NCBI RefSeq assembly: GCF_946479715.1
Contig: NZ_CAMLHF010000035.1
Location: 1 to 33,205, forward strand
Reading direction: 5' to 3'
Origin: an uncultured Pedobacter sp.
Lineage (GTDB): Bacteria > Bacteroidota > Bacteroidia > Sphingobacteriales > Sphingobacteriaceae
DNA: 33,205 nucleotides
Shown in pieces: positions 1 to 23,873 of the stretch. Under the pieces are notes generated by a model. It was not told where the DNA came from and searched no databases. It saw only the letters and a program-made list of their open reading frames with translations. The position numbers were made by a program, and so were the translations under genes. The first letter of the stretch is position 1; the number at the start of each line of letters is the position of its first letter.

Positions 1-329
1 TGGCCACAGGTACGGCCTCTTTCGCCTGTTATTCGTCCAATGGGCAAACCTGATTCTGTAACAGCTCTTTCTATCAATGTTTCTTCCAGCGCCATTATTT
101 CTTCAGCAATTGCTTCTAAAAACTCAGCACGCTTAATTGTTGAAGTATTTTTATAGCTAACAAAAGCATCTTGTGCTAATGATAATGCCCGTTCAAGTTC
201 TTCTTCTGTTGCGTAAGTAAACTTTTCTGATATTAAAACATTCCCAGTGGGATTGAAAGCCTGAAAGCTATCGGCTCCATGGCCACTACGAATATTTCCA
301 ATAAAATTCTCACCTGTTATAGACACCAT
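1..329 (-). CDS. Aldehyde dehydrogenase, N-terminal part (probable alpha-ketoglutarate semialdehyde dehydrogenase)
   Basis: This is the first 109 codons of a gene that runs off the left edge. The translation begins MVSITGENFIGNIRSG and continues with an AFNPTGNVL segment, then a helical stretch ending in TESGLPIGRITGERGRT. This is the N-terminal pattern of NAD(P)-dependent aldehyde dehydrogenases, and the TESGLP..R..GERGRT part is typical of the 2,5-dioxovalerate (alpha-ketoglutarate semialdehyde) dehydrogenase subgroup. The catalytic Cys and Glu lie outside the window. The gene begins 25 bases after the stop of the 2-keto-3-deoxy-arabinonate dehydratase-like gene, on the same strand. That neighbour would produce alpha-ketoglutarate semialdehyde, so this enzyme would oxidise it to alpha-ketoglutarate for the TCA cycle. 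The ALDH family call is firm; the substrate is inferred from context and subgroup resemblance. I chose the ATG at 329 because it gives the usual N-terminal length. Confidence 0.8.
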   Translation of the reverse strand, partial: MVSITGENFIGNIRSGHGADSFQAFNPTGNVLISEKFTYATEEELERALSLAQDAFVSYKNTSTIKRAEFLEAIAEEIMALEETLIERAVTESGLPIGRITGERGRTCG

Positions 330-354
330 ACTTAGTAAAATTTAAAGCTATCTT

Positions 355-1206
355 TTATACACGAATAGCTATGTGGTTTGTTAATGTTCCAATATTATCA
401 ATACTTATGCTAACCTCGTCCTTTTCATTCAAAGTAAAGTCATTAGGAGGTACAATACAAGTTCCGGTCATTAAAAAACATCCGTTTTTAAAGTCGCACT
501 CAGCATACAAATAGATTACTAACTCATTCAGAGAACGTTTCATTCTGCTAATAGAAACCGAATCACGAAAAACCTCCTTACTGTTTCGTTTGATAACCAT
601 CTCTATCATTGTTTTATCTGATATCGGCTTTTCAGGTATATATAAACACGGCCCCAGAGCAGCACTCCTTTCATAGATCTTTGCCTGCGGTAGGTACAAT
701 GTATTTTCTCCTTCAATGCTTCTGGAACTCATGTCATTTCCTATAGTATAAGCCTGTATGTTTCCAGAAGAATTGATAAACAAAGTTAATTCAGGTTCTG
801 GCACGTTCCAGGTCGAATCTTTTCTAATGTTTACGTGTTGTTTATGCCCGGCTACACGATGAGGTAATGACTTAAAGAATAATTCAGGGCGATCTGCATC
901 ATAAACTTTGTCGTACATGCTTGCTCCACCGGAATCTTTAGATTCCTCTTTCCTGGCATCGCGACTGCGCAGATAGGTTACTCCCGCTGCCCACACTTCC
1001 TGTTGTCCAATTGGTGCCTCAACATCGTTTTCTAATATTCCTAACGCTTTATTTTCCTGCAAGGATTCAGGGTGCTCAGTCAATACATGAACTAAATATT
1101 GGTAGAGGTTGTCATTGTTAATCAATGTATCCCAATCAGCATTAAGTAAATAATATCCTGCATCACTATGCAAAATAGCGCCTTGTTTAGTTTTATATAA
1201 TTTCAT
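355..1206 (-). CDS. 2-keto-3-deoxy-D-arabinonate dehydratase-like protein (fumarylacetoacetate hydrolase fold)
   Basis: This 283-residue protein has the fumarylacetoacetate hydrolase (FAH) fold and closely resembles the archaeal D-arabinose-pathway dehydratase KdaD of Sulfolobus. That enzyme converts 2-keto-3-deoxy-D-arabinonate to alpha-ketoglutarate semialdehyde. Shared segments include YDKVYDADRPELFFK (98-112), VPEPEL (135-140), ENTLYLPQAKIY (167-178) and a C-terminal TGTCIVPP. The expected divalent-metal ligands are visible as E137, E139 and D158, with K176 as the conserved lysine. FAH-fold proteins also include diketo-acid hydrolases of the L-fucose and L-rhamnose pathways. Those would need a sugar-acid dehydrogenase partner, which I do not see, while the next gene is an aldehyde dehydrogenase as the pentose route requires. 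The protein has no signal peptide and should be cytosolic. The upstream gene ends 34 bases away. Confidence 0.82.
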   Translation of the reverse strand: MKLYKTKQGAILHSDAGYYLLNADWDTLINNDNLYQYLVHVLTEHPESLQENKALGILENDVEAPIGQQEVWAAGVTYLRSRDARKEESKDSGGASMYDKVYDADRPELFFKSLPHRVAGHKQHVNIRKDSTWNVPEPELTLFINSSGNIQAYTIGNDMSSRSIEGENTLYLPQAKIYERSAALGPCLYIPEKPISDKTMIEMVIKRNSKEVFRDSVSISRMKRSLNELVIYLYAECDFKNGCFLMTGTCIVPPNDFTLNEKDEVSISIDNIGTLTNHIAIRV

Positions 1207-1240
1207 AATTTATTTATCCGTTTTAATTTGAAATTGTCTG

Positions 1241-2899
1241 TTATAAGGAGATCCCTCTTTTCCAGGGAATAAAATCGTTGTGACCTAATGCTTCAGCTTT
1301 AGCTTTAACCGCCCCGCTTGCGATCTCTATGATGTAATCGAGGATTCGTTCTCCTACCTGTTCAATGGTTTCTTCACCAGTTATTATTGTGCCCGCATCG
1401 ATATCAATAATGTCATTCATCTTTTTGTACAGAGTTGTATTGGTTGATATTTTTACCACAGGTGCAATAGGATTGCCCGTCGGGGTGCCCAGTCCCGTTG
1501 TGAAAAACACTAGTGTAGCTCCCGCTCCAACCTCTGCCGTTGTCGACTCTATATCGCTACCTGGCGTACATAGTAACGTTAATCCAGGTTTTGATACCTG
1601 CTGAGGGTAGTCGATAACATCAATAACCGGCGATGTACCTGCTTTTTTAGCTGCTCCTGCAGATTTAATGGCATCAGTAATTAAACCGTCGCGAATATTG
1701 CCTGCTGATGGATTGGAATCAAATCCTGAACCAACAGCTTTAGCTCTTTCATGATAAGCCGTCATTAAGGTCATGAACTTCCGGGCCACGGTCTCATCTA
1801 TACAACGATCGCTCAGTTCCTGCTCAACACCACAAAGCTCCGGAAATTCCGAAAGTATTACTGATGAGCCCAAAGCAACTAATAGATCTGAAGTATACCC
1901 CAAAGCCGGGTTAGCCGAAATTCCCGAAAAACCATCTGACCCTCCACATTCCAGTCCGATACAAAGTTTGCTTAAAGGAGCGGGTTTGCGCTTAAGTTCA
2001 TTGGCCTGCATCAAGCCTGCAAAAGTTTGTTTTATAGCCAATTTTATTAATTCAGACTCGGTTCCTACCTGTTGCTGCTCAAAACAATACAAAGGTTTGG
2101 AAAACTGAGGATCTCGCTTCGCAATTTCCTCTTTCAATAGTGGTATTTGCGCATTCTGACAACCAAGACTTAACACAGTAGCTCCTGCAACATTCGGATG
2201 CGTTATATATCCGGCAAGCAAGCCACAAAGGTTAATGGTATCGTCTTTTGTGCCACCACAGCCTAACGAATGTGTCAAGAATTTAACGCCGTCAACATTC
2301 GGAAACACCCTGTTTTCTACCTCTGCATCAGTACCTAAAGTTTCTATGTCTATACTCAATATATCCTCAACAGCTATACCGGCTCTGTGCATCTTAACCA
2401 ATTGCTGTACCTGATTGTAATAAGATGAGTCATTGTCATGATACCCCAATCCTTTCATAAAGGCATCCTGAATAACCTGTACATTCTTATTTTCACAAAA
2501 TACCAAAGGGATAATCAACCAGTAATTGGCCACACCAACCTTGCCGTTATCTCTATGATATCCCATAAAAGTTTTATCGCTCCATGAAGATACTTCCGGC
2601 ACTTCCCATCCGGTTTTTCTTTCCTTAAGCTTATAGTTATTAGCCGCATGACTAACATTGCCCGTAGTAATTACTTCGCCTTTTTTAATCGGTTTAGTTG
2701 CCTTGCCTACAAGCACCCCGTACATCAGAACATCATCTCCGGGCTGTAAGTCTATAGTTGCAAATTTATGCTTTGCCTGAACATCTGTAACCAGGTCATA
2801 AGTTCCTGCATCACTATTTATGGCATCACCTGCTTTTAAATCCGATAATGCTACCTCTATATTATCTGTACGATTTATTTTAAGTGTTTTTGACTTCAT
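1241..2899 (-). CDS. UxaA/GarD-family sugar-acid dehydratase (altronate dehydratase-like; D-arabinonate suspected)
   Basis: This 552-residue protein is a full-length member of the altronate/galactarate dehydratase family, with an N-terminal SAF domain (about residues 10-90, ending VLMYGVLVGKATKPIKKGE) joined to the catalytic UxaA domain. Family motifs include THSLGCGGTKDD, LSLGCQN and LECGGSDGFSGISANPALG. These enzymes are metal-dependent (iron or manganese) and remove water across C2-C3 of an aldonate to give a 2-keto-3-deoxy acid. Classic UxaA acts on D-altronate in uronate degradation, but no uronate isomerase or oxidoreductase is present here. D-arabinonate has the same C2-C4 configuration as D-altronate, and the next gene looks like a 2-keto-3-deoxy-arabinonate dehydratase, so D-arabinonate (or L-fuconate) is a reasonable substrate. 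The family is secure; the substrate is inference. It starts 11 bases after the DUF4091 gene. Confidence 0.82.
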   Translation of the reverse strand: MKSKTLKINRTDNIEVALSDLKAGDAINSDAGTYDLVTDVQAKHKFATIDLQPGDDVLMYGVLVGKATKPIKKGEVITTGNVSHAANNYKLKERKTGWEVPEVSSWSDKTFMGYHRDNGKVGVANYWLIIPLVFCENKNVQVIQDAFMKGLGYHDNDSSYYNQVQQLVKMHRAGIAVEDILSIDIETLGTDAEVENRVFPNVDGVKFLTHSLGCGGTKDDTINLCGLLAGYITHPNVAGATVLSLGCQNAQIPLLKEEIAKRDPQFSKPLYCFEQQQVGTESELIKLAIKQTFAGLMQANELKRKPAPLSKLCIGLECGGSDGFSGISANPALGYTSDLLVALGSSVILSEFPELCGVEQELSDRCIDETVARKFMTLMTAYHERAKAVGSGFDSNPSAGNIRDGLITDAIKSAGAAKKAGTSPVIDVIDYPQQVSKPGLTLLCTPGSDIESTTAEVGAGATLVFFTTGLGTPTGNPIAPVVKISTNTTLYKKMNDIIDIDAGTIITGEETIEQVGERILDYIIEIASGAVKAKAEALGHNDFIPWKRGISL

Positions 2900-2910
2900 T
2901 AATCAAGTGT

Positions 2911-4590
2911 TTATTTTTCTAGTATTCGTTTCAAGGTCTGATCTATCCATTCTTCTTTCTTGGGGAAATCAGCGTAAGTTTTTATTTCAGATAGCATGGG
3001 ATCGTCCTGCTTAATACCGGCCGACTGCAGAATGGCATAGTCCTGAAGAGATTCTGCAAATACTTCCCATCTTATAGAATCGTATGGGCCATCTGGTCCA
3101 GGATAAACTACAAAAGGATCTCCAACAGCAATTCCAGGATAAGCACTTCCAGACGCATTGGTAAAAGGATCAATAGGTTCTTCTTTTTCCACTACGTTCC
3201 AATAGTTGTACCCCCAGTGTAAAAAGCCCTGGGCTTTCAAATGATAGAATAAAAAACCTGACATTCTGATTTTAGCAAGAGGGGTATCATAGAACCTATT
3301 AAGCCACTGATCTCTGGGGCCTGTGCAGTAATAAACCCAATGAGGAATATTCTCTTTAAGGTAATCACCAGCCGAACTAATGATCGGAATGGGTATATCA
3401 GTTAATTTCTCTCTTCCGTATCTAACATCACTTAATGCATCCATCACTTTCATCCAGGGAGCCAGTTCCTGCAATATCTTTCTAGCCCTCTTATAATTTT
3501 GTATATGCTCCGATCCGGGCTCATCCGACAAATGGAAGTAGGAATCATCTAATACGTTTTCCTGTTTAAGGAAGCGATGAAACTCCGGTAAGTATTGTTT
3601 TAAAAAATTCAGGTAAACAGGAGATGTTGCAGAAAGATTCTCGTCCCAAAGCAGTTCGTAATTATCACCCTTTTTTGTGTAAACATGCATTGCATTTTCA
3701 ACACCCCAGTAAAGAAAAAGATGGCCCCATTCAAATTTTTTGTAGCCCAATTCCTTAGTCATATCAAGGAATCGTTTGATACGCGACCAGTCAAAACTAT
3801 ATTTACCAGGACTGGTTTCATTGATGATCAGCATCTGACACGGCTTTTTAAATACAGTTTTAAGTTCAAACAAATTTTGAATAAAGGCCACATCATTTCC
3901 ATGATCAATTAAATTCTTCATCTGTGCTTTAGTAAGCTGCCACCACTTCTCATCATACATTTCAGTTTTATACTGAGCCCAGGTAGCTTCACCTCGCCAC
4001 CAATGGGTTACATGAAAGTTCTTACGGGGCTGAACGATAAGCTTGCTAATGTTTAAATCAACCAGAAGTATTTTCTCCATATTTACCTTTCCCTCATTCC
4101 AGCTTACTTTTACTTTGCATTGGTGAATACCCGGTTCTATATTTTCCGGAATCCTTAGGGTAATCCAAAATGAACGGCTTGCATATGGATTAGCATCTAC
4201 GCGGGTAAGTGGATAAAGCGGATCTGGTAACATGCCCGGTAAGAAACCAATCCCATCCAGCTCTTCCTCCCGTACATCAGTATTAAAGTTTTGAAAGGGA
4301 ACCAGGCCTACATAACGGACTTCATGTTTAACTGCGCCAGCTTCCATATTACAGGCAATCTGTACCCTGTCTTTCATATTGCTATGAAAGCCAACCTGAA
4401 AGGATACTCTACTGTTTCTAGCTACGATTAAGGTAAGATGATCATTGACTTTACCTGGAGATTGAGGAAAGATTCGTTTCAGCGAGCTTTCCAGCCAAAC
4501 GTCCATATTTTTATCTTTACCTAAGGCATCCTTATGCAACAGCAGGCCAAATAAAATAAATACAAATGCTATTTTTTGAACTCTTTTCAT
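2911..4590 (-). CDS. Exported GH123-like / DUF4091 protein, probable glycoside hydrolase
   Basis: This 559-residue protein has a hydrophobic N-terminal segment (about residues 8-18, followed by DALGKD) that should act as an export signal. An N-terminal beta-sandwich-like part (to about 190) precedes a central barrel-like region. In that region a YFHLSDEP motif places D356-E357, matching the adjacent Asp-Glu position of GH123-type enzymes. The C-terminal part, with a GDPFVVYPGPDGPYDSIRWE segment, is the DUF4091 signature. It is unusually rich in tryptophan and tyrosine (HWWRGEATW, HWGYNYW), as expected of a carbohydrate-binding cleft. Characterised GH123 enzymes act on beta-N-acetylgalactosaminides, but this branch is distant and its specificity cannot be read here. 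Its place among sugar-acid genes in an arabinan-type operon suggests it trims or cuts the target glycan. No truncation is seen. Confidence 0.75.
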   Translation of the reverse strand: MKRVQKIAFVFILFGLLLHKDALGKDKNMDVWLESSLKRIFPQSPGKVNDHLTLIVARNSRVSFQVGFHSNMKDRVQIACNMEAGAVKHEVRYVGLVPFQNFNTDVREEELDGIGFLPGMLPDPLYPLTRVDANPYASRSFWITLRIPENIEPGIHQCKVKVSWNEGKVNMEKILLVDLNISKLIVQPRKNFHVTHWWRGEATWAQYKTEMYDEKWWQLTKAQMKNLIDHGNDVAFIQNLFELKTVFKKPCQMLIINETSPGKYSFDWSRIKRFLDMTKELGYKKFEWGHLFLYWGVENAMHVYTKKGDNYELLWDENLSATSPVYLNFLKQYLPEFHRFLKQENVLDDSYFHLSDEPGSEHIQNYKRARKILQELAPWMKVMDALSDVRYGREKLTDIPIPIISSAGDYLKENIPHWVYYCTGPRDQWLNRFYDTPLAKIRMSGFLFYHLKAQGFLHWGYNYWNVVEKEEPIDPFTNASGSAYPGIAVGDPFVVYPGPDGPYDSIRWEVFAESLQDYAILQSAGIKQDDPMLSEIKTYADFPKKEEWIDQTLKRILEK

Positions 4591-4605
4591 TTTTTCAAAT
4601 CCTTT

Positions 4606-4941
4606 CTAACAGCAACCCTTTGGGCCACAATAATCGTCTGATACCAGTGGAATTAATCCCTTTTCCAGTTCTTCTTCACTGGCATATCGAACCTTGTCTA
4701 CAATAACCCTAATATGGAATTCATCATCTAAGCCTTCAAATCCGGTTTCCTTTGATAAAAAAAACTGCTTTTCTTCTCCTTCGTTTAAACCTTTAAGTTC
4801 AGCTTCCAAAGAAGGAAGAATTGTCCCATGACCATGTAAATAATTGATTGGTAACCCATCCAAAATATCCTCAAGTATCTCTCCTTTACTATTTTCCATC
4901 TTATATCTAATGGATACAACAGTTTTATCCTCAATTTTCAT
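4606..4941 (-). CDS. Short SlyD-like FKBP-type peptidyl-prolyl isomerase with Cys tail
   Basis: This small protein (111 residues from the ATG at 4941; an ATG two codons upstream at 4947 is also possible) resembles SlyD, with the LHGHGTILPSLEAELKGLNEGE stretch of the FKBP domain and a VRYASEEELEKGL segment matching the SlyD C-terminal strand. It is much shorter than SlyD. The chain passes directly from the FKBP strand ending FFLSKETGF to the last strand, so the chaperone insert-in-flap domain seems to be absent. It ends DDYCGPKGCC, a short cysteine tail like a remnant of the SlyD metal-binding tail. The start overlaps the end of the aquaporin gene by 11 bases, which implies translational coupling. 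With the CobW-type GTPase two genes upstream it may form part of a metal-handling set. It should be cytosolic. The FKBP call is good; the metal role is inferred. Confidence 0.78.
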   Translation of the reverse strand: MKIEDKTVVSIRYKMENSKGEILEDILDGLPINYLHGHGTILPSLEAELKGLNEGEEKQFFLSKETGFEGLDDEFHIRVIVDKVRYASEEELEKGLIPLVSDDYCGPKGCC

Positions 4942-5644
4942 AAGCACTTATTCTTGATTTTTCAACTTCTGTATGCGTTTGTGGAATAAAGGTTTCAGCT
5001 AATAAAAATTTACAGACTACAACAGCTAGCACGGCACCAAAAACTGTAGCGCTTAGATACACCCATAGGTGTTCTGTATGACCAGAAATAATAGCCGGAG
5101 CTAATGATCTTGCCGGGTTCATTGATGCGCCACAAATTGGACCTGCAAACATCGCTTCCAAACCAACCACACCTCCAATTATTATTCCTGCAAGGCTAGC
5201 CTCTCTTTTACTTTTTCTTCCTACAGTAAGGATTACAAGCATTAAAAAAAATGTCAGAAAAAACTCAAGTATGAAAGATTGAAAAGCAGAACCTGCAGGC
5301 AGTGTTGATCCTAGTGTAGCATTAGCCGGAAATATGGCGTGCAGTGTGCAACTTGCTGCAATAGCTCCCGCTACCTGACTTAAAATAAAAGGCCCCAAAT
5401 CTCTACGTGGATGCTTTCCTGATATGGTAAGGGCGATGCTCACCGCAGGATTCATATGCGCACCTGAAATACTTCCAAATGCGTAAATCATACTCATTAC
5501 AATCAACCCAAAGGTGATTGCTATACCCATATGTGTTACTACTCCACCCGATTCCTGGTTAATGATAATTGCGCCTGTACCACAGAAAACCATTATAAAT
5601 GTGCTTATAAATTCAGCGGTATATTTTCTTACTGGACTCTGCAT
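4931..5644 (-). CDS. Aquaporin (MIP family channel)
   Basis: This 237-residue membrane protein has the two half-repeats of the major intrinsic protein family, with NPA boxes at residues 65-67 (GAHMNPAVS) and 176-178 (GASMNPARS). About six membrane helices can be traced, starting with EFISTFIMVFCGTGAI. A Ser, not an Asp, follows the second NPA-Arg, which resembles water-type aquaporins more than glycerol facilitators, though polyol passage cannot be ruled out from this alone. The gene begins 18 bases after the CobW-type GTPase and overlaps the FKBP gene downstream, so it is firmly inside the sugar operon. A water or small-solute channel is an unusual member of a polysaccharide utilisation operon. 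Possible roles are osmotic relief during sugar uptake or passage of a small polyol; both are speculation. Confidence 0.88.
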   Translation of the reverse strand: MQSPVRKYTAEFISTFIMVFCGTGAIIINQESGGVVTHMGIAITFGLIVMSMIYAFGSISGAHMNPAVSIALTISGKHPRRDLGPFILSQVAGAIAASCTLHAIFPANATLGSTLPAGSAFQSFILEFFLTFFLMLVILTVGRKSKREASLAGIIIGGVVGLEAMFAGPICGASMNPARSLAPAIISGHTEHLWVYLSATVFGAVLAVVVCKFLLAETFIPQTHTEVEKSRISAYEN

Positions 5645-5662
5645 TTTATTCTTCTGATAGAC

Positions 5663-6736
5663 CTAATCGATAATCCTGTGTGTTGGTTTCGGGTAGCCCG
5701 GTTTAAATGAGGAAATATCTTTCGTAATAAATTTATACCCTGAACTTGCTTCAATTTTGCTGATTGTATTAAACACCAACGCTTCAAGATGTTCTGGCTC
5801 TGTTTGCACTCTTGCATTAATCAGTATATCTGCCTTTGTCGAAACTGTTTTTCTTATCTCATTGATAGACGTTTGCACTCCCGACGTAAAGCTTATCTTC
5901 TTCTGTTGCACACCATCGTCAATAAAGAATTTTAAATGACCTATTGGTAATTTCTGTTCGTTTATTTCCCAATGAATTTCTTTTGCAAGCGTTACTCCTG
6001 CCTCAAACGCATTATTTTCATCAGCAAAGAGCTCCATTTCAATATCAAGCCAGGCAAGCTCTGCTTCTCCTGCTCCATAAATATCATAGTCGATTTCCAA
6101 AGAGCTTCTCGCACCTGATTTAAAATTTTCCAAAGTAATCAACCACTGGTTTATACTCTCTTTATCAAGCGAGTTTTGAAACAGAATTGTTTTTTCAGGA
6201 AACTTACTATTTACCAAACGATCCATCTTGTTTAACTCCTCGTCAGTTAAAGAATCGATCTTGTTGACAATAAGGATATCCGCCTCTTCAATTTGTTTCT
6301 TATAAATATAAGTTACACTATTAACAAATAACGGTGCAGACTGCAGCATTGTTGGCAACACGTTTGCATCCACAAATACAGAGATGACGGTTTCTATATC
6401 CTTTCGAAATTTTTGTAGTGGTTTTACCACTGTAGCAATCATATCTGTGCAGGAACCCACAGATTCGGCAAACACTATCTCTGCATAATGAGATTCTTTT
6501 AGCACCTCAATTAAACTGTCTACTTTATCATAATTACAACAAAAACAGCCACCTGTAACTTCCATAACTGGAACATTTGAATTGCGCATGAATCTGGTGT
6601 CCACCAACTGCACCCCCTGGTCATTTGTGATTACACCAACATTCACCTTTCCTTTCATTAATTGAGTGCATGCATTTTGAATAGCTGTTGTTTTACCACT
6701 ACCCAGAAAACCGCCGATCAGATATAACTTCATCAT
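5663..6736 (-). CDS. CobW-type G3E GTPase, putative metallochaperone
   Basis: This 357-residue protein has the motifs of the CobW/G3E GTPase family: a Walker A box GGFLGSGKTT at residues 8-17, the metal-binding GGCFCC motif at 62-67 (CxCC), an ESVGSCTD segment at 91-98, and the guanine-specificity box NKID at 158-161. The C-terminal half (about 210-357) is the variable CobW C-terminal region. Such proteins use GTP to deliver metal ions (zinc, cobalt or others) to client proteins in the cytosol. It lies 27 bases after the GH116 gene and 18 bases before the aquaporin on the same strand. Candidate clients in the operon are the GH116 enzyme (cysteine cluster, Tat export), the isomerase and the UxaA-type dehydratase. 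The family is certain; the metal and client are not. No zinc-box site was seen upstream. Confidence 0.85.
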   Translation of the reverse strand: MMKLYLIGGFLGSGKTTAIQNACTQLMKGKVNVGVITNDQGVQLVDTRFMRNSNVPVMEVTGGCFCCNYDKVDSLIEVLKESHYAEIVFAESVGSCTDMIATVVKPLQKFRKDIETVISVFVDANVLPTMLQSAPLFVNSVTYIYKKQIEEADILIVNKIDSLTDEELNKMDRLVNSKFPEKTILFQNSLDKESINQWLITLENFKSGARSSLEIDYDIYGAGEAELAWLDIEMELFADENNAFEAGVTLAKEIHWEINEQKLPIGHLKFFIDDGVQQKKISFTSGVQTSINEIRKTVSTKADILINARVQTEPEHLEALVFNTISKIEASSGYKFITKDISSFKPGYPKPTHRIID

Positions 6737-6763
6737 TTCTATTTTAATTTATACGCTTTATGA

Positions 6764-15541: not shown

Positions 15542-16708
15542 TTAATTTACTTCCAGTTCATCTCTTGAAGGGAATTTCGGAAAATTACCATGAGGTTCTG
15601 TTTGGTACCAATAAGCAACAGTCATGATATCCGATTTCTGTGCCAGATACCTGCCACCATCTCTCCATCCCAGATCCTGAATGGTTACCTTAAGGTCTTT
15701 ATCAAAACGTATCGGATCCATGATATGCCACCTGTACATTCCAAATCTTTGTTGGGCTTTATAGGTCCCGTCTGGCCTGATCACCTGATGTAAACCGGCA
15801 TAGGGAGTGCTGTATTCTGTATATTTACCACCTCTGTCGAAATTATAAGATCCGCAGAAATAATCCTCCGTTCCTGTTCCGGCTATGGTTGGATATTCTT
15901 TATCACCATCTAAAAAGAACTTGATCTCACCTTCTCCCCACCATCCATTGTTGTTTACACCAAGTCCCATATATAGGCCTACAAACTGTCCTTTGCCTTT
16001 TACACCATCAATTATAGTATGTACAGATGTAGTGTTAGGGTTCGATCTTCTATATTGTGCATGAAAATAAGCTTCGTCATCTGCAACTGGGGTAAGTGTG
16101 TAATTTACCTGATAATATAACCTCATATCATCTTTTGGATTAATGTTTTCAAGAGTGATTTTGCATTTCTTTCTGAAAGGCATTTTCCAGTAGCAGTTAA
16201 AAGCACTTCCCGGATTAACACTTACAGGTAGGGAATTTAATGGAGCATATTCTCCCCATCCCATTCCAAAGAATGCACCTACAGGAGCTTCAATAGAAGG
16301 TTCTTTTTCATCGTCCCAGTAAAAGCGTAAAATAGAGAACTGCCAGTTTCCCGTTGGTGTCATCCAGATCTGCTGTATGGCACCAGGACCCTCCATTTCT
16401 GCTATAGTTACGGTTTCTCCGCTTTTAACAATTATAAAAGGATTCACTTTCCAGCCAATTCCCAGATCGCGGGCTTCGTTTGCTGCGTTGGCAACATTAC
16501 GTTGCCCTTTACTTTTCACTGGGTCAGCCATTCCGCCTTTACCTTTTTCTCCGGTGAAGTTCTCCGGACTGATAGACCTGGTTTTTGCATCAGATAATCG
16601 AGACAGATTACCAAGATTCATATCAAGGCCATCAAATTTCTGTGGTTTTTGCGCAACTGCCGGTAGAACGAAAATGGTTGCGATGATTAGTAATAAAAGC
16701 TTTCTCAT
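15542..16708 (-). CDS. GH172 (DUF2961) glycoside hydrolase, candidate exo-alpha-D-arabinofuranosidase
   Basis: This 388-residue protein has a standard signal peptide (MRKLLLLIIATIFVLPAVAQ) and a DUF2961 domain, now family GH172. Family motifs visible are GPGAIQQIWMTP, APVGAFFGMGWGEY, NNNGWWGEGEIKFFLDGD and PTIAGTGTEDYFCGSY. Candidate catalytic glutamates are in the GEGE segment (E259/E261) and the GTED segment (E281), the positions of the retaining pair in this family. Known GH172 activities are alpha-D-fructofuranosidase/difructose-dianhydride hydrolysis and exo-alpha-D-arabinofuranosidase on mycobacterial arabinogalactan. Because an isomerase and kinase suited to D-arabinose follow, the arabinofuranosidase role is favoured. 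It is the first gene of the operon. The ATG at 16708 was preferred to one 45 bases upstream because it begins the signal peptide properly. It probably acts in the periplasm. Confidence 0.88.
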   Translation of the reverse strand: MRKLLLLIIATIFVLPAVAQKPQKFDGLDMNLGNLSRLSDAKTRSISPENFTGEKGKGGMADPVKSKGQRNVANAANEARDLGIGWKVNPFIIVKSGETVTIAEMEGPGAIQQIWMTPTGNWQFSILRFYWDDEKEPSIEAPVGAFFGMGWGEYAPLNSLPVSVNPGSAFNCYWKMPFRKKCKITLENINPKDDMRLYYQVNYTLTPVADDEAYFHAQYRRSNPNTTSVHTIIDGVKGKGQFVGLYMGLGVNNNGWWGEGEIKFFLDGDKEYPTIAGTGTEDYFCGSYNFDRGGKYTEYSTPYAGLHQVIRPDGTYKAQQRFGMYRWHIMDPIRFDKDLKVTIQDLGWRDGGRYLAQKSDIMTVAYWYQTEPHGNFPKFPSRDELEVN

Positions 16709-16791: not shown

Positions 16792-16807
16792 GCTTACACG
16801 TTTAAGC
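16792..16807. promoter_or_regulatory. Operator O1, LacI-type palindrome
   Basis: The sequence GCTTACACGTTTAAGC is a near-perfect 16-bp palindrome with the central CG typical of LacI-family operators. It is the exact reverse complement of operator O4 in front of susC. It lies between the predicted promoter and the GH172 start, a position suited to repression. Confidence 0.75.
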
Positions 16808-16876: not shown

Positions 16877-16881
16877 CTTAA

Positions 16882-16897
16882 GCTTAAACGTTTAAAC
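16882..16897. promoter_or_regulatory. Operator O2, LacI-type palindrome
   Basis: GCTTAAACGTTTAAAC is a palindromic 16-mer centred 90 bp upstream of O1. It sits in a 32-bp block (16871-16902) that matches 18261-18292 in inverted orientation with one mismatch. Together with O1 it brackets the predicted operon promoter. Confidence 0.75.
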
Positions 16898-16971: not shown

Positions 16972-18006
16972 CTACTTCTTTTTAGCCGTAGCGCTCGATT
17001 GTCTTACAATTAATTTCGAAGGGATACTTATCTGCGTGTTGAGGCTTTTTTTATCAGTTATGTTTTTAATTAAGATCTGAACAGCCTTTTTACCCATTTC
17101 AAGTAGTGGCTGTTCTATATAGGTTAAAGGGGAATAAAAGAAATCAAAAGCTTCACTCTCATCAAAACATACTATAGCTACGTCATCTGGAACCCTATAC
17201 TGCATCTTATTTAACGATTTCAATCCTTTTAAAGTAAGCGTATTTGTAGCAAAAAATAGCGCATCCATTGCAGGATTCTGAGCAAACAGTTCACGTATAC
17301 CCGCTCCTATCTCTTCCTGATTAGCATTGAAATCAACAGTTTTGATCAACGGGGTTTTAGCTTTTAACAGTTTATTGTCCTTAATTGCATCAAGGTAGCC
17401 CCGCTTTCTATCCAGCATATGAACTAAATCTGTTTTATAAGCGACCATGCCTATGTTTGTTCTGCCTGCTTCAATTAAATGGCTCACAGCATGATAAGAA
17501 GCATCATAATTGTTAGTCATCACATAGTTAGTATCCAGGCCTTTAAAATACCTGTCGATAAGCACTACTGGAATATTGTTTTTTAAGAGCACTTCAATTT
17601 GTTCTTGTGAATTTTCGGCCGGTGCAATGATAAAACCATCAACCTGTCTTTCAGTTAAAATATTGATCAGGTTTTGAGATTTCTCTGCATTTTCATCCGC
17701 ACTTGCAAAAATCACGGTATAGTTAAATTTCTTCGCTTCGTCTTCAACGTTTCTGGCAAGATTAGCAAAGAACGGATTGGAAATATCTGCTACAATTAAT
17801 CCAAAAGTATGCGATTTTCCTGTTTTAAGGCTTTTGGCAATCTGATTAGGCTGATACCCCATTTCCACAGCCGTATCTCTTATCACCTGGGCTATTTCTT
17901 TACCAACACGTGCTTCTTTTTCCTTATTATTTAGCACGTAAGAAACCAGCGCGGTAGAAACACCCACAGTTTGTGCAATATCTTTAATGGATACCTTCTT
18001 CTTCAT
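16972..18006 (-). CDS. LacI-family transcriptional repressor of the locus
   Basis: This 344-residue protein has an N-terminal LacI helix-turn-helix (VSIKDIAQTVGVSTALVSYVLNN, about residues 4-26), a hinge helix region (QPNQIAKSLKTGKS) and a periplasmic-binding-protein-like sugar-sensing domain (HTFGLIVADISNPFFANLARNVE onward). It should bind palindromic operators as a dimer, and four strong palindromes of LacI type (GCTTAAACGTTTAAGC-like) flank the gene, two on each side. The effector is presumably a sugar or sugar phosphate of the pathway, such as D-arabinose or D-ribulose; this is not visible in the sequence. A weaker palindrome lies 14 bases before its start, suggesting autoregulation. No clear terminator separates it from the operon 263 bases downstream, so some readthrough is possible. 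Confidence 0.92.
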   Translation of the reverse strand: MKKKVSIKDIAQTVGVSTALVSYVLNNKEKEARVGKEIAQVIRDTAVEMGYQPNQIAKSLKTGKSHTFGLIVADISNPFFANLARNVEDEAKKFNYTVIFASADENAEKSQNLINILTERQVDGFIIAPAENSQEQIEVLLKNNIPVVLIDRYFKGLDTNYVMTNNYDASYHAVSHLIEAGRTNIGMVAYKTDLVHMLDRKRGYLDAIKDNKLLKAKTPLIKTVDFNANQEEIGAGIRELFAQNPAMDALFFATNTLTLKGLKSLNKMQYRVPDDVAIVCFDESEAFDFFYSPLTYIEQPLLEMGKKAVQILIKNITDKKSLNTQISIPSKLIVRQSSATAKKK

Positions 18007-18019
18007 TGCATAAAGGTAT

Positions 18020-18035
18020 GCTTAATCGATTAACA
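18020..18035. promoter_or_regulatory. Weak fifth operator-like palindrome upstream of lacI
   Basis: GCTTAATCGATTAACA shares 12 of 16 positions with the consensus GCTTAAACGTTTAAGC, and its core TTAATCGATTAA is a perfect 12-bp palindrome. It ends 14 bases before the lacI start codon, where a bound repressor would block lacI transcription. Autoregulation is inferred. Confidence 0.5.
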
Positions 18036-18265
18036 TAAAAATATTAATTGAAACATTTACCTAATTAATTTTAGGCTTTTATCTACCCTGCCTCTTAAAA
18101 ACGAAATAGATCTGTATTTTTCTTCGCTATTGTAAAGAATTTATCACGAAGCAAGATATCCATCAAGCAAAAAGTGTGTTTTTAACCATTTAGAGGCGGA
18201 TTCTGTAAAACCATCCACTGCTTTTTAAGGGAATTGTTTCATGAAATGCAAAAAACTGCTTGTTT

Positions 18266-18281
18266 GTTTAAACGTTTAAGC
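18266..18281. promoter_or_regulatory. Operator O3, LacI-type palindrome
   Basis: GTTTAAACGTTTAAGC is the exact reverse complement of operator O2 and lies upstream of the predicted susC promoter. Its centre is 88 bp from that of O4. Confidence 0.75.
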
Positions 18282-18286
18282 TTAAG

Positions 18287-18308: not shown

Positions 18309-18353
18309 TCATTTTTTGAACCGAGATCGCTTCGGAATTTTTTTGATCTTTTT

Positions 18354-18369
18354 GCTTAAACGTGTAAGC
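18354..18369. promoter_or_regulatory. Operator O4, LacI-type palindrome
   Basis: GCTTAAACGTGTAAGC is identical, in reverse complement, to operator O1. The identity extends two bases further (AA) and a CTTTTT run precedes both copies. It lies downstream of the predicted susC promoter, a repressing position. Confidence 0.75.
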
Positions 18370-18509
18370 AAGTATTATGGGATGCGCGCTCCCTGGAATT
18401 TCTGCTTATAATTTAGCTGTTATCATTGAAACGAGGCACTCCTACTTTTCTAACTATGGAGAACACTTACCACGCTCAATTTTTTAACCATAAACCAAAT
18501 TAAATTTTT

Positions 18510-21500
18510 ATGAAAGGTTACCAGAACACTAAAACGAGTAATCGTTATGGTGGTAATGCCAGAGTAGTATTAAAGATTTTTTTCTTTTTCTTACTCGCAA
18601 ATTATCACCCGCTGAAAGCACACGCTTTTCAGGTAAATGCAACACAACAAGCCCGGGTTATTACAGGAACTGTTAAAGATGATGCAGGCATCCCTTTACA
18701 GGGCGTAAGTGTCACGATTAAGGGAGAAACCGCAAAAACACAAACTGATGTAAACGGAAAATACAGCATCGGCTTGCAAAGCTCTGGTTCTCATCTCATC
18801 TTCTCTTACATTGGGATGGAAACCCGCGAAATTCCCATTGGCTCTGGAAATGTTTACAATGTTACCCTACAGGATGACAGTAAAACATTGGAAGAAGTAT
18901 CCATCTCTACCGGATACATGACACAAAAGAAGGCAGACCTAACCGGAGCCATCAGTGTAATCTCAAGAGACGACTTTGCTAAAAATCCAAGTGCTAATGT
19001 CATGAGATCTTTGCAGGGAAAGGTTCCTGGCGTTTTTATTACAACAGATGGGAATCCCGCAGAAAATGTTGGAATTCAGGTTCGTGGGGTTACCTCTATG
19101 AACTCCTCTCCTGCCCTGATTGTGTTGGATGGTCAGCCTGTTACCATTAATCTGAGAGACATTAATCCAAATGACATCGAATCAATGCAGGTATTGAAAG
19201 ATGCAGCCTCGGCTTCAATCTACGGTTCCCGTGCTGCAGGAGGTGTTATTCTCATCAATACAAAAAAAGGCAGAAAGGGTGATAATACAAAAATAACACT
19301 CGACAGTTACGTTGGTGCTTCAAAAATAACGGGAGTTCCAGATATGCTCAATGCAGTGCAATATGGCCAGGGTTTATGGCAGGCAACCGTTAATGATGGC
19401 GACGATCCGGGTCCGGGTAACATACGTATTTATAACTACGACTGGAATCGGGATGCCAACGGAGTTCCTGTACTAAACAAGGTCACTCCCATAGAATGGT
19501 TAAATGCAGATCATACTATGCCTTCGTCAGATACGGATTGGTTTAAAGAAGGCACCAGAACTGGTTATCAGCAAAATCATCAGTTAACTATATCCAGCTC
19601 AAGCGAAAGATCAACCAGTCTTTTCTCTTTAAATTATTATGATAATAATGGTACACAGGTTACCTCAAATTTTAAACGCTATTCAGCGCGGTTCAATAAT
19701 GACTATGACCTGCTAAAAGGCAAACTAACTATAGGTGAAAATTTTGCATTATCGAAACTTGCAATTCATGATGTGAACAGTACTTATGGATTTTTGGTGA
19801 TGCCTCCAAACATTCCGGTTTATGATCTTAATGGAGGCTGGGGCGGTGTGGCCATGCCTCTTGGTATGGACGACTTTAATAACCCTGTTAGAGACCTGTT
19901 GATAAGAAAAGACAACAGGAACAACTATCTAAAAGCACTGGGAACTGTCTATGCAAATCTGAAGATCCTGCCTAATCTTGCACTTAAAACCCAATTTGGT
20001 GTAGACTATACTATGGAGTACGATAGAACTATTGATCCTAAGTGGGTTGAGGCCGGAGGAAAAAGTAATACCATAAACAAGGTGTTTCAAAATAACACAC
20101 ATGACCTTGGAACTACCTGGACAAATACATTGACCTATAACCTTAAGCTTGGCGAACATACGGTGGATATGCTTGGCGGTTTGGAAGCGTACAAACTTTT
20201 ACAGGAAAATTTTCAGGGTAACCGAGATGGACTGCTATTAGAAAATAGAGATTACGCTTACCTTGGTACAGCAACGGGTGATAGCAAAGGCCTGCTAGGC
20301 GGAGGTAATGAAAGAAAGCTCTTCTCTTACTTTGGAAAGATCAACTATGCATATGCGTCTAAATATTTGTTTTCCGCAACTATTCGCCGAGACGGTTCTT
20401 CTGTATTCGGAGAGAACAATAAATACGGTTTCTTTCCTGCCTTCTCCGCCGGCTGGAGAATCAAGAACGAATCCTTCTTAAAGGATGTTAACGCTATTTC
20501 AGATTTGAAACTAAGGGCAAGCTGGGGCCAAAACGGTAATTCTGCACCACTCGCCTCAGCATTACTGGTAAACATTTATGGTGTTAACGTTGATGGGACT
20601 TCTTATCCGATAGCTGGTAATCAAACCGGTGGTATCCCATCAGGATACCTCAGAAGAAGTCTGGGAAACCAGGATTTAAAATGGGAAACCACTACCCAAA
20701 CAAACATAGGTGTTGATTTTGCTTTCTTAAACAATCGCCTTACAGGGTCCTTAGATTGGTTTAATAAGAAAACAACAGATATGCTCTTTCAACCACCATA
20801 TATCGCAGCTTTGGGCGAAGGTGGATATCGATGGATCAATGCCGCAGATATGACCAACAAAGGTTTCGAATTGATACTTGGCTGGAATGACACTAAAGGT
20901 GATTTTTCTTATCACATCACCACTAATTTTTCGGCGTATAAAAACAAAATCACAGATCTGCCTTCAAGTGTAAGATTTGCCTATGGAGGTAACGGATTGT
21001 TAGACGACGTTATCGGACGGCCACTGAATTCATTTTATGGCTTAGTTGCCGATGGTATTTTTAAAACGCAGGAAGAAGTTGATAATTCCGCTCAACAGCC
21101 AGGAAAAGGTATTGGAAGGATCAGATATAAAGATCTGGATGGAGACGGTGTAATTAATGAAGCCTATGACCGTACCTGGATAGGCGTTCGAGATCCCAAT
21201 TTAATGGCTGGTCTAAATCTTCAGGCTTCCTATAAAAATTTCGATTTTACGGCCTTTTTTCAGGGTGTTTTTGGCAACGATGTTTATAACTCATGGAAAG
21301 AGCTTAGTGATTTCTGGAACATAGGTGTTCAGAACGACAGAAATCACCCACTCCGCGTGTTGGATGCCTGGACCCCTTTAAATCCTAATTCAGACATCCC
21401 AGCATTGTCACGTCGCGACTCTAATGGTGAAAAAAGATTGTCTACTTACTTTATTGAGCCAGGATCTTACGTTAAGCTCAGAAGTGCTGATTTAGGCTAT

Positions 21501-21677
21501 ACATTTCCTTCCAAAATTACCCAGAAGATCAGCATAGAAAGATTAAGATTATACATTTCTGCTCAAAATCTTTTTACCGTTAAAAGTGGCAAGTTCACCG
21601 CCGGAGATCCTGAAAATCCAGGCACGGGCTATCCAATGCCGCTTACTACTTATTTAGGTATTAACGTAACATTTTAA
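18510..21677 (+). CDS. SusC-family TonB-dependent outer-membrane transporter
   Basis: This 1055-residue protein has an N-terminal export segment (LKIFFFFLLANYHPLKAHAF), a carboxypeptidase-like regulatory domain (about 45-125; ITGTVKDDAGIPLQGVSVTI), a plug domain (about 130-250; VMRSLQGKVPGVFITTDGNP, SPALIVLDGQPV, IESMQVLKDAASASIYGSRA) and a long beta-barrel ending in TYLGINVTF with a C-terminal Phe, as expected for outer-membrane insertion. It imports oligosaccharides through the outer membrane with energy from TonB, working with the SusD lipoprotein encoded 11 bases downstream. The promoter carries the same operators as the hydrolase operon, so import and breakdown should be switched together. 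The ligand is probably an arabinan-type oligosaccharide; this is inferred from the neighbours only. Length is normal and no frameshift is seen. Confidence 0.95.
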   Translation: MKGYQNTKTSNRYGGNARVVLKIFFFFLLANYHPLKAHAFQVNATQQARVITGTVKDDAGIPLQGVSVTIKGETAKTQTDVNGKYSIGLQSSGSHLIFSYIGMETREIPIGSGNVYNVTLQDDSKTLEEVSISTGYMTQKKADLTGAISVISRDDFAKNPSANVMRSLQGKVPGVFITTDGNPAENVGIQVRGVTSMNSSPALIVLDGQPVTINLRDINPNDIESMQVLKDAASASIYGSRAAGGVILINTKKGRKGDNTKITLDSYVGASKITGVPDMLNAVQYGQGLWQATVNDGDDPGPGNIRIYNYDWNRDANGVPVLNKVTPIEWLNADHTMPSSDTDWFKEGTRTGYQQNHQLTISSSSERSTSLFSLNYYDNNGTQVTSNFKRYSARFNNDYDLLKGKLTIGENFALSKLAIHDVNSTYGFLVMPPNIPVYDLNGGWGGVAMPLGMDDFNNPVRDLLIRKDNRNNYLKALGTVYANLKILPNLALKTQFGVDYTMEYDRTIDPKWVEAGGKSNTINKVFQNNTHDLGTTWTNTLTYNLKLGEHTVDMLGGLEAYKLLQENFQGNRDGLLLENRDYAYLGTATGDSKGLLGGGNERKLFSYFGKINYAYASKYLFSATIRRDGSSVFGENNKYGFFPAFSAGWRIKNESFLKDVNAISDLKLRASWGQNGNSAPLASALLVNIYGVNVDGTSYPIAGNQTGGIPSGYLRRSLGNQDLKWETTTQTNIGVDFAFLNNRLTGSLDWFNKKTTDMLFQPPYIAALGEGGYRWINAADMTNKGFELILGWNDTKGDFSYHITTNFSAYKNKITDLPSSVRFAYGGNGLLDDVIGRPLNSFYGLVADGIFKTQEEVDNSAQQPGKGIGRIRYKDLDGDGVINEAYDRTWIGVRDPNLMAGLNLQASYKNFDFTAFFQGVFGNDVYNSWKELSDFWNIGVQNDRNHPLRVLDAWTPLNPNSDIPALSRRDSNGEKRLSTYFIEPGSYVKLRSADLGYTFPSKITQKISIERLRLYISAQNLFTVKSGKFTAGDPENPGTGYPMPLTTYLGINVTF

Positions 21678-21688
21678 AACGTACGAAA

Positions 21689-23437
21689 ATGAAAAAATAT
21701 AAAATAATTATAGCACTCCTTGGAATGATCCTATTCTTTGGGTGCAAAAAATACCTCGACGTATCAACTAAAGGTGCTTTAACTGAAGAACAGGTTTCCA
21801 ATCCGGAACAACTGGAAAACTTTGTAACGGCAGCGTACGCCTATATGCCGAATCTGGGATATCCAGATACGCATGCCCCATGGATAGCAAGTCTTCGCTC
21901 AGACGATGCCTACAAAGGTGGCGGTGGTTTAAGTGATCAAACTCCATGGTACGAAATGGAGATTTTTTCAGCCGTAACTCCAAACGTTGGAAATAATGAT
22001 GGGCCATGGTATCAGGGTTACTGTGCCATCAGCCGTGCCAATGGTGCGCTGCGCCTGTTAGGTAAATTTGACGAAACTCAGTTTGCAGCCAAAGAACAAC
22101 GTATTGCAGAAATGAAATTTCTGAGAGGCTGGATCTATCTGGGGATGAAATTAAGATGGAATTATGTACCATGGATAGATGAAACTGTACCAACAGATGC
22201 CGCAGTTGTTGCAGCAATTTCAAACAGGCCTAAAGGTTCTGTAAACGACCTTGAATTATGGGATAAGATCATCAAGGATCTGGAAGATGCCGCTAATGTG
22301 TTGCCCGAAACTCAGTCAGAAAAGGGCCGTCCTACTAAGTTTGCCGCTCATGCCCTTGCCGCTAAAGCTTTATTATTTAGAGCATATGAAAAAAATGACA
22401 GGCATGAGGTAACCAATATCAACAAGGAAACCCTAAACAAATCCCTGGCACATATAAATGAGATTACTGCAAGAGATGGATCACAGTATGACCTGACGCC
22501 TGATTTTGCCGAGAATTTTATGATTGAATATGATAACAATACCAAGGAGTCTCTTTGGGAAATTCAATATTCTTTAGACGATGGAACAACCAACGGAAGG
22601 GTAAACTGGGGCGATCAGCTTAATGCACCATGGTGGTCTCCGTATTTTGGCTGCTGCGATTTTCATAAGATCTCGCACAACATGATAAATGCTTTTAAAA
22701 CTGATGGAACCGGGTTACCTGACTTCGACAATTACAACAATACTGAACTAGGCGGACAGCTTTATAAACAGTATTTCAAGGATCATGCTTTTGACCCACG
22801 AATGGGCCATACTGTGGCGATACCCGGCTATCCCTGGAAATACGACAATAAACTTATGTTTGATGAATCAGGGTCACGTGCGCCATTTCAGTATGGATAC
22901 TTCAACTCTATGAAGGAACAGGTCCGTCCGGATTGTAACTGCATGTTCAAGCCTTTTTATGTTCAAAATTCAATGAACAAGAAAGAAATCCGCTATGCAG
23001 AAGTATTACTTTGGAAAGCCGAAATCTTAATCCAATTAGATAGAACTGACGAGGCCCTCCCCATCATAAACAGAATAAGGGCGCGTGCAGCAAATAGTCT
23101 TGGCCGTTTAAAGAAAGACGATGGGAGTTTGTGGATGAATTATAAAGTAGAGCAATATAAACCCGGGGTAAACTGTACCTGGACCAAAGATTTTGCATGG
23201 AAAGCTTTAATGTGGGAAGACAGGTTAGAGCTAGCTGGCGAAGGAAGACGGTTTTACGACCTCATGCGTTGGGGACAGTTAAGTACAGTAATGAACACCT
23301 ACATTGAAAAAGAGAAAAAACGGTTTGATTGGTTTAACCTGGCGCATTTTACTGCTGGCCGGGATGAATTCCTACCCATTCCTCAGCCTCAAATGAACTA
23401 CTCTCAAGGAAGTTATGTACAGAATCCAGGATATTAA
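21689..23437 (+). CDS. SusD/RagB-family glycan-binding lipoprotein
   Basis: This 582-residue lipoprotein has a signal with lipobox ending FFGC (Cys19) and the SusD start KKYLDVSTKGALTEEQ. TPR-like helical segments follow, including IAEMKFLRGWIYLGMKLRWNYVPW and AAHALAAKALLFRAYEKND. The C-terminal RagB/SusD part contains EVLLWKAEILIQLDR, the family's WEDRLELAGEGRRFYDLMRWG block, and the ending FLPIPQPQMNYSQG..QNPGY. SusD proteins sit on the cell surface as the lid of the SusC barrel and capture oligosaccharides. It is rich in Trp, as expected for sugar stacking. It lies 11 bases after susC and 13 before the next small lipoprotein gene, forming a three-gene unit. Its exact ligand cannot be read. 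Confidence 0.95.
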   Translation: MKKYKIIIALLGMILFFGCKKYLDVSTKGALTEEQVSNPEQLENFVTAAYAYMPNLGYPDTHAPWIASLRSDDAYKGGGGLSDQTPWYEMEIFSAVTPNVGNNDGPWYQGYCAISRANGALRLLGKFDETQFAAKEQRIAEMKFLRGWIYLGMKLRWNYVPWIDETVPTDAAVVAAISNRPKGSVNDLELWDKIIKDLEDAANVLPETQSEKGRPTKFAAHALAAKALLFRAYEKNDRHEVTNINKETLNKSLAHINEITARDGSQYDLTPDFAENFMIEYDNNTKESLWEIQYSLDDGTTNGRVNWGDQLNAPWWSPYFGCCDFHKISHNMINAFKTDGTGLPDFDNYNNTELGGQLYKQYFKDHAFDPRMGHTVAIPGYPWKYDNKLMFDESGSRAPFQYGYFNSMKEQVRPDCNCMFKPFYVQNSMNKKEIRYAEVLLWKAEILIQLDRTDEALPIINRIRARAANSLGRLKKDDGSLWMNYKVEQYKPGVNCTWTKDFAWKALMWEDRLELAGEGRRFYDLMRWGQLSTVMNTYIEKEKKRFDWFNLAHFTAGRDEFLPIPQPQMNYSQGSYVQNPGY

Positions 23438-23450
23438 AATCTATACAGCG

Positions 23451-23873
23451 ATGAAAAAAATTATTTATATGTGTTATCTCCCTTTGATTTTTCTGTTTAC
23501 CGGTTGTAAGAAAGAGCCGGTTATTGAAAGCAAAGCTGGAGTGAGTTTGCCTATGGTAACCAACCTTAAACTGCAAAAAACAGCTGAAAAAGAAGTTAAG
23601 TTAACATGGGGCATTCCGTCCTCCGTTTCAGATCAAATTGTTCAGCCTTTAAATGTATTTGTTGAGGTAAACGAGGTGATAAGTGTTACCAAAACAGTCT
23701 CGGTATTTTCTACAACAATTGCTAATGCCCCAACAGATTTTGTATACCAATTACCTGATGCAGCAAAAACTTACCACCTTACGGTAAAGCTTATGGGAAA
23801 TACAAAAGTTGTTGACAAAAACTATTCAAGCCAAATTTATTCGCTTGGACAGACTGTAGTTTATACAAAATAA
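23451..23873 (+). CDS. Small surface lipoprotein, third gene of the SusCD unit
   Basis: This 140-residue protein begins MKKIIYMCYLPLIFLFTGC, a lipoprotein signal with Cys19 followed by KKE. The mature part (about 120 residues) has the alternating strand pattern of a fibronectin III/Ig-like domain, with VTNLKLQKTAEKEVKLTW at the start and AKTYHLTVKLMG near the end. I do not recognise a named family with confidence; small lipoproteins of this kind often follow susD and act as accessory glycan-binding proteins. The ATG at 23451 was chosen over one 36 bases upstream inside the end of susD because it starts the signal peptide. The gene is followed by a hairpin. Confidence 0.75.
   Translation: MKKIIYMCYLPLIFLFTGCKKEPVIESKAGVSLPMVTNLKLQKTAEKEVKLTWGIPSSVSDQIVQPLNVFVEVNEVISVTKTVSVFSTTIANAPTDFVYQLPDAAKTYHLTVKLMGNTKVVDKNYSSQIYSLGQTVVYTK

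Follow-up and report, generated by a model that had tools for sequence, protein, structure and literature searches.

D-Arabinan is a hallmark of the cell walls of mycobacteria and related bacteria and, to our knowledge, little is known about its consumers in the environment. We describe a 33,205-nucleotide stretch of DNA from an uncultured Pedobacter sp. (contig NZ_CAMLHF010000035.1, positions 1 to 33,205; hereafter, the window) that very likely carries a polysaccharide utilization locus (PUL) for D-arabinofuranose-containing glycans, with D-arabinose consumed by two alternative routes. PUL42 of Dysgonomonas gadei (Al-Jourani et al. 2023, PMC10115798) is likewise a Bacteroidota locus with a fucose isomerase and GH172 exo-D-arabinofuranosidases, and a putative GH116 protein (HMPREF9455_02468) has been placed in it (PMC10509167). 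Unlike the window, PUL42 contains GH183 (DUF4185) genes, and the available part of its description makes no mention of oxidative D-arabinose genes or of CobW/FKBP, both present here. The D-arabinan cluster of Microbacterium arabinogalactanolyticum (Shimokawa et al. 2023, PMC10509167) differs, as far as the accessible text goes, in having an ABC transporter, an in-cluster GH183 gene and exo-enzymes without a signal sequence; its GH116 enzyme, ExoMA2, has Ser at both extra Cys places of the window GH116 protein. Herbaspirillum huttiense degrades D-arabinose by a non-phosphorylative pathway (Watanabe et al. 2019, PMC6336799), which shares with the candidate genes described below a UxaA/GarD-type D-arabinonate dehydratase and an FAH-type dehydratase that yields 2-oxoglutarate semialdehyde. 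H. huttiense is a Proteobacterium, no SusCD or glycosidases are reported for this pathway in the sections available, and its FAH enzymes are described as poorly related to archaeal KdaD, whereas among proteins of solved structure it is archaeal KdaD that the window FAH protein matches best. The zinc-cysteine beta-L-arabinofuranosidases of GH127/GH146 (PMC10728902, available in part) are also furanosidases and resemble the window GH116 protein in the Cys-rich active-site neighbourhood that we propose for the latter, but catalysis by ExoMA2 depends on Glu431 and Asp557, which are conserved in the window GH116 protein.

Compared with the D-arabinan PULs already known, the locus described here is a new form, notable for combining genes for both D-arabinose routes with a GH116 helper module, and it has the SusC-SusD pair together with GH172 and GH116 by which such a PUL is recognized. 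Thirteen co-directional genes run from position 16708 down to the window edge with intergenic gaps of -11 to 81 bp (Table 1). They begin, in order, with GH172, DUF6786, FucI, FucP, an AraB-type kinase, GH116 and a CobW GTPase; the remainder encode an aquaporin, a small FKBP protein, a beta-N-acetylgalactosaminidase-like GH123 protein, a UxaA/GarD-type dehydratase, a KdaD-like FAH protein and an aldehyde dehydrogenase. A SusC-SusD-DUF4945 unit lies on the far side of a LacI gene from this run. The window is Pedobacter-like, its GH116 protein sharing 98% identity with the counterpart in Pedobacter sp. V48 and 96% with the one in P. panaciterrae. At the V48 locus the aldehyde dehydrogenase gene is complete and a dGTPase-like gene (assigned by eye) comes next, which probably marks the end of the catabolic genes. 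Pfam scans covered 25 distinct window proteins out of 27 open reading frames (ORFs) of at least 100 amino acids, the other two being antisense within other genes; the start codons of GH172, FucP, AraB, GH116 and FKBP were re-set to internal ATGs. Comparisons were made with 80 GH116 loci, some on short contigs, so that gene content refers to the visible stretch only. An initial annotation had proposed a locus of this kind, naming SusCD, GH172, GH116, FucI, FucP, an AraB-type kinase and a KdaD-like dehydratase under a shared operator set, and all of these were recovered by profile and structure-sequence matches. It recognized the kind of locus correctly, missed the place of the KdaD-like gene in a second route and omitted the CobW/FKBP module; the GD_AH dehydratase, aldehyde dehydrogenase, GH123, FKBP, aquaporin, CobW and DUF6786 genes were left unused.

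The GH172 protein (Pfam DUF2961, 317 bits) matches the exo-alpha-D-arabinofuranosidase 8ic8 with 401 bits, and its scores do not exceed 139 bits for any of the three further solved GH172 sequences matched. For the GH116 protein the corresponding values are 363 bits for the exo-beta-D-arabinofuranosidase 8ic6 and at most 39 bits for the other eleven. In the available text of Shimokawa et al. (PMC10509167), Asn253 of the GH172 enzyme ExoMA1 blocks fructofuranose, and Glu431, Asp557, His446 and Arg483 of ExoMA2 cut or bind beta-D-arabinofuranose. All five residues have identical counterparts in the window (N304 in GH172; E445, D571, H460 and R497 in GH116), and the four in GH116 are invariant across 28 aligned relatives. 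We therefore predict, in line with the initial annotation, that GH172 is an exo-alpha-D-arabinofuranosidase and GH116 an exo-beta-D-arabinofuranosidase of the GH116 subfamily 4 type.

Both transcription units appear to share their control. Four GCTTAAACGTTTAAGC-like palindromes form mirrored pairs, two ahead of GH172 and two ahead of SusC, with spacings of 90 and 88 bp, and a weaker copy lies at about 18017-18039. Allowing up to three mismatches, the pattern has 11 matches in the window (both strands counted, corresponding to about half as many places) against a shuffle mean of 0.94; none of 100 window shuffles attained 11, the maximum being 8. The 6.5-Mb genome of V48 contains five distinct sites with at most one mismatch, four of them at the D-arabinose locus, and the reversed pattern, used as a control, is absent from V48 and has a single match in each of two genomes out of the eight searched. 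In Niabella, Ilyomonas and Chitinophaga, too, the motif precedes GH116, SusC, GH172 or LacI. Across the 80 loci, with up to two mismatches, there were 50 sites in 23 loci compared with 15 in one mononucleotide shuffle per locus; lone weak sites hence mean little.

Two routes for consumption of D-arabinose can be read from the operon. FucI converts D-arabinose to D-ribulose, and AraB-type kinases phosphorylate O5, a position that is not used in the L-fuculose pathway. As Pfam and NCBIfam searches found no aldolase family among the scanned window proteins, the combination of FucI with a ribulokinase fits D-arabinose, as had been proposed, better than L-fucose. The operon end encodes a candidate second, oxidative route, made up of the UxaA/GarD-type dehydratase, the KdaD-like enzyme and the aldehyde dehydrogenase. 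Of the solved structures matched, archaeal KdaD comes closest to the FAH protein (177 bits for 2q18, 56 for the runner-up), and residues E108, E137, E139, D158 and K176 of the FAH protein are identical to E114, E143, E145, D164 and K182 in the KdaD active site. D-Arabinonate dehydratase is known within the UxaA/GarD superfamily (Watanabe et al., PMC6336799, available in part). For the full-length aldehyde dehydrogenase of V48, the best NCBIfam match is 2,5-dioxovalerate dehydrogenase, at 103 bits far under the cut-off of 750, and the best PDB match is 3v4c, an unnamed NADP+ aldehyde dehydrogenase (453 bits). With author-chosen identity thresholds, the 80 GH116 loci divide into 2 with both routes (V48 and P. 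panaciterrae), 12 with FucI only, 18 with the oxidative genes only and 48 with neither in the visible stretch. A dehydratase and an FAH gene are present at 12 of the 18 oxidative-only loci and an FAH gene alone at the rest. FucI was not found genome-wide in any of these 18 genomes, several of which are metagenome bins and possibly incomplete; the positive controls V48 and P. panaciterrae were recovered alongside the first eight. One locus, that of Pedobacter B4-66, is without FucI, AraB and SusCD and keeps GH172, DUF6786, FucP, GH116, CobW, FKBP and the oxidative genes.

The DUF6786 gene follows the same distribution. It is present at 31 of the 32 loci with either route, the exception (L030) having a visible stretch that ends at the FAH gene, and at none of the 48 without. 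A survey of 300 genomes of the order detected it in 43, namely all 17 with this GH116 and 26 of the 283 without, so that the association is not exclusive. In Foldseek comparisons the structure model resembles the mutarotase/aldose-1-epimerase fold (E 1e-11; TM-score 0.62 when normalized by target, 0.46 by query), from which a mutarotase role is inferred.

GH116 also has recurrent neighbours of another kind. The FKBP family occurs at 33 and the CobW family at 30 of the 80 GH116 loci. CFCC, an instance of the CxCC motif of COG0523/CobW GTPases, is present in 29 of 30 CobW relatives, and all 33 FKBP relatives have a cysteine cluster at or near the C-terminus; the window FKBP protein does not reach the SlyD equivalog score, and its likeness to SlyD lies in the Cys tail only. 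Some loci, among them L016, L017, L023, L031, L033 and L040, have GH116 with FKBP and CobW and no visible D-arabinose catabolic genes. Together these observations suggest that the Cys-rich, Tat-type GH116 accompanied by CobW and the Cys-tailed FKBP may be a metal-dependent glycosidase matured before export. A more specific version, which we regard as possible but rather doubtful, is that a widespread Bacteroidota branch of GH116 is a metalloglycosidase in which C447 and C453, beside C454 and C458 and near the catalytic Glu445 in sequence, bind a metal loaded by the dedicated CobW and FKBP proteins in the cytosol, before the folded enzyme is exported through Tat.

An alternative, quite plausible if slightly short of probable, is that CobW and FKBP are unrelated to GH116 metallation and serve general zinc supply or another enzyme, their linkage reflecting shared ancestry of a gene block. 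Against this, the CobW type (E <= 1e-30) occurs in only 6 of 300 genomes of the order and every time within 35 bp of GH116, itself present in 17 (Fisher p 1.3e-8), but five of the six GH116s are at least 88% identical to that of the window and thus close kin. Moreover, in 11 of 33 cases there is a four-base overlap between the FKBP frame and the GH116 stop, L068 and L078 encode an FKBP-CobW fusion of about 430 residues directly behind GH116, and the pair accompanies GH116 in loci that lack FucI. Where GH116 has Cys at 447 and 453, 51 of 58 rows have CobW/FKBP nearby or a full-length CobW elsewhere in the genome (6 of the 51 through genome-wide CobW matches of 34-54% identity, one sharing a genome with another row), leaving seven without a detected partner; with Ser or Thr at 447 or 453, a partner was found in 0 of 20. 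The window row was removed from this table, L022 and L067 are without data, and weak matches (up to 52 bits for CobW and 42 bits for FKBP) were not counted. Positions 447 and 453 were picked with the data already in view; a definition by four cysteines (353, 453, 485, 781) tracks the partners less well (29 of 38 with it, 16 of 42 without). The Cys change has occurred in only two independent events on the tree, and an independent-pair test is without power (median p 0.5). Given these two changes and the post hoc positions, shared ancestry explains much of the link. In addition, Ser-type GH116 works without such neighbours, the solved ExoMA2 being of this type. The structure model of GH116 (numbering, ORF number minus 4) has a mean pLDDT of 74.8 with residues 442-461 below 50, which is too weak for cysteine geometry. 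Tat export was considered as a mark of chaperone-dependent GH116 and dropped, the RR motif being present in 77 of 80 relatives of both Cys types. A tie of CobW/FKBP to FucI was also rejected, as the pair accompanies GH116 where FucI is absent.

For the oxidative genes, it is improbable that they serve another sugar acid, such as D-altronate or galactarate, and are merely co-transcribed. Pfam and NCBIfam do place the dehydratase among galactarate/altronate enzymes, the operon is without a D-arabinose dehydrogenase, and no such dehydratase is above threshold at 6 of the 18 oxidative-only loci (L030, L047, L063, L066, L067, L069), in some because the visible stretch ends. However, the dehydratase scores far under the galactarate dehydratase cut-off (278 versus 731), and the KdaD-like partner, the failure to detect FucI in 18 of 18 oxidative-only genomes, the shared operators and an L-fucose dehydrogenase within the oxidative operon of Chitinophaga arvensicola (NF052481, 422 bits, cut-off 300) all point to D-arabinose. 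A 68-70% relative of that dehydrogenase is encoded elsewhere in V48, P. panaciterrae and B4-66; in V48 it adjoins, without an operator, an amidohydrolase resembling a sugar lactonase (by eye), and the first oxidative steps could come from there. That the locus is one for L-fucose or L-galactose, with FucI, FucP and the oxidative genes serving L-fucose and two glycosidases of other specificity, is most unlikely: NCBIfam ranks FucI and FucP as L-fucose equivalogs, L-fucose and D-arabinose have a common configuration, and UxaA-type enzymes are weakly active on L-fuconate too (PMC6336799, in the part available), but there is an AraB-type kinase in place of a fuculokinase, no aldolase family among the scanned proteins and no fucosidase, GH172 and GH116 match D-arabinofuranosidases including the specificity residues, and V48 has a separate cluster resembling an L-fucose oxidative route. 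This 14-kb cluster of V48 (L129) looks non-phosphorylative in type and contains a FucP-like gene, a dehydratase (57% to that of the window), an SDR, an FAH gene, an amidohydrolase and the L-fucose dehydrogenase relative.

Several observations weigh against a D-arabinofuranose PUL with two catabolic routes. No DUF4185/GH183 protein was detected among the 25 scanned window proteins, as the initial annotation had noted. V48, P. panaciterrae and B4-66 each have one strong DUF4185 gene (322-327 bits) outside the D-arabinose locus, consistent with its suggestion that the endo enzyme may lie elsewhere; this gene lies apart, flanked by helicase-like and HD-type genes (named by eye), on a contig without a strict-form operator. 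The same three genomes have a second, weak DUF4185 gene (48-49 bits, just over the cut-off of 39.5), P. yulinensis has one of 304 bits, and none of 14 control genomes matches. The V48 protein scores 203 bits against a solved endo-D-arabinanase. GH116 is also present where the visible stretch shows neither route, at 48 of the 80 loci, and is therefore not proof of D-arabinose use. Neither a D-arabinose dehydrogenase nor a lactonase was found in the operon, by scans of the window proteins and at the V48 locus. Of the 11 FucI-only genomes that were searched, 5 have a KdaD-type gene elsewhere, so one route does not strictly exclude the other. Operator sites with up to two mismatches cover only 18 of the 32 loci with a D-arabinose route, compared with 5 of the 48 without. 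Our reading of the locus as a D-arabinose PUL draws on the closest solved structures, the conserved residues, the 13-gene run, the mirrored operators, the distribution of the routes and the GH183 genes of sister genomes. Searches of a collection of open-access papers found nothing on DUF6786, on a D-arabinonate route in Bacteroidetes, or joining CobW, SlyD and a glycoside hydrolase, which does not show absence from print.

Table 1. Features of the D-arabinose locus in the window
Feature	Position	Strand	Evidence
Aldehyde dehydrogenase, cut by window edge, candidate 2-oxoglutarate-semialdehyde dehydrogenase	3-329	-	Aldedh 36 bits; complete in V48, L001:19088-20683
KdaD-like FAH protein, candidate 2-keto-3-deoxy-D-arabinonate dehydratase	355-1206	-	177 bits to 2q18
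UxaA/GarD-superfamily dehydratase, candidate D-arabinonate dehydratase	1241-2899	-	GD_AH_C 324 bits and GD_AH_second; galactarate dehydratase 278, cut-off 731
GH123-type protein	2911-4590	-	908 bits to 8p4l, 904 to 8q8h
Small FKBP/SlyD-like protein ending CGPKGCC	4606-4941	-	PRK10737 36 bits, below cut-off 174; FKBP_C 17.4, cut-off 21.1
Aquaporin	4931-5644	-	MIP 157 bits; relatives at 7/80 GH116 loci
CobW/COG0523-type GTPase	5663-6736	-	98 bits
GH116, predicted exo-beta-D-arabinofuranosidase, twin-arginine signal, Cys-rich loop (447, 453, 454, 458)	6764-9397	-	363 bits to 8ic6
AraB-type ribulokinase	9426-11096	-	NF003154 670 bits, cut-off 428; TIGR01234 540, under its cut-off 583
FucP symporter	11107-12438	-	TIGR00885 342 bits, cut-off 280
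FucI isomerase (D-arabinose to D-ribulose, inferred)	12450-14213	-	NF008220 1098 bits, cut-off 775
DUF6786 lipoprotein (lipobox by eye), predicted mutarotase fold	14295-15524	-	552 bits; AF2 pLDDT 89; Foldseek mutarotase-family top matches
GH172/DUF2961, predicted exo-alpha-D-arabinofuranosidase, Sec-type signal by eye	15542-16708	-	401 bits to 8ic8; N304 = ExoMA1 N253
LacI-type operator, GH172 side, outer	16792-16807		palindrome GCTTACACGTTTAAGC
LacI-type operator, GH172 side, inner	16882-16897		palindrome GCTTAAACGTTTAAAC
LacI-family regulator	16972-18006	-	Pfam LacI and Peripla_BP_3 above cut-off; relatives at 12/80 GH116 loci
LacI-type operator, SusC side, inner	18266-18281		palindrome GTTTAAACGTTTAAGC; arm of 43-nt inverted repeat, 91% complementary
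LacI-type operator, SusC side, outer	18354-18369		palindrome GCTTAAACGTGTAAGC
SusC, TonB-dependent glycan importer	18510-21677	+	TIGR04056 830 bits, cut-off 368
SusD, glycan-binding lipoprotein	21689-23437	+	SusD_RagB above cut-off
DUF4945 small protein, lipobox by eye	23415-23873	+	132 bits, cut-off 28

Other genes of the window are less readily placed. The GH123-type protein is very near solved beta-N-acetylgalactosaminidases, one of them from Niabella aurantiaca, and its family is present at only 3 of 80 GH116 loci. Galactosamine is present on mycobacterial arabinogalactan (according to a figure legend in PMC10115798), and a link between the two is speculation. The aquaporin gene is placed between the CobW and FKBP genes. 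A DUF3078 protein (24100-24996) is encoded immediately after the SusCD unit and stays next to LacI in B4-66, which has no SusCD. Efflux genes of the EmrB/EmrA/TolC type, beside an AraC-type regulator (25110-29971), are apparently unrelated to the PUL.

From the gene content, we would anticipate that SusCD imports oligosaccharides and that exported GH172 and GH116 remove terminal alpha- and beta-D-arabinofuranose. DUF6786 could help to interconvert the released sugar forms and FucP would take up D-arabinose, which FucI and the AraB-type kinase would convert to D-ribulose-5-phosphate. In the parallel branch, D-arabinonate would be supplied by an L-fucose/D-arabinose dehydrogenase encoded elsewhere and be turned into 2-oxoglutarate by the successive action of the UxaA-type dehydratase, the KdaD-like enzyme and the aldehyde dehydrogenase. 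Both transcription units would be under the control of LacI via the mirrored operators. The least certain part of the scheme concerns CobW and the Cys-tailed FKBP, which most likely assist the maturation of GH116 ahead of Tat export.

In summary, the locus gives Pedobacter and Chitinophaga models for D-arabinan turnover and suggests that, under a single regulator, bacteria swap the isomerase/kinase route for an oxidative one. For DUF6786 there is now a predicted fold as well as a close functional context. A pathway dedicated to metal maturation of a glycoside hydrolase, if true, would be new. The partners of GH116 pose the question of whether some glycosidases need metal-loading helpers, which would alter the expression, assay and annotation of such enzymes.

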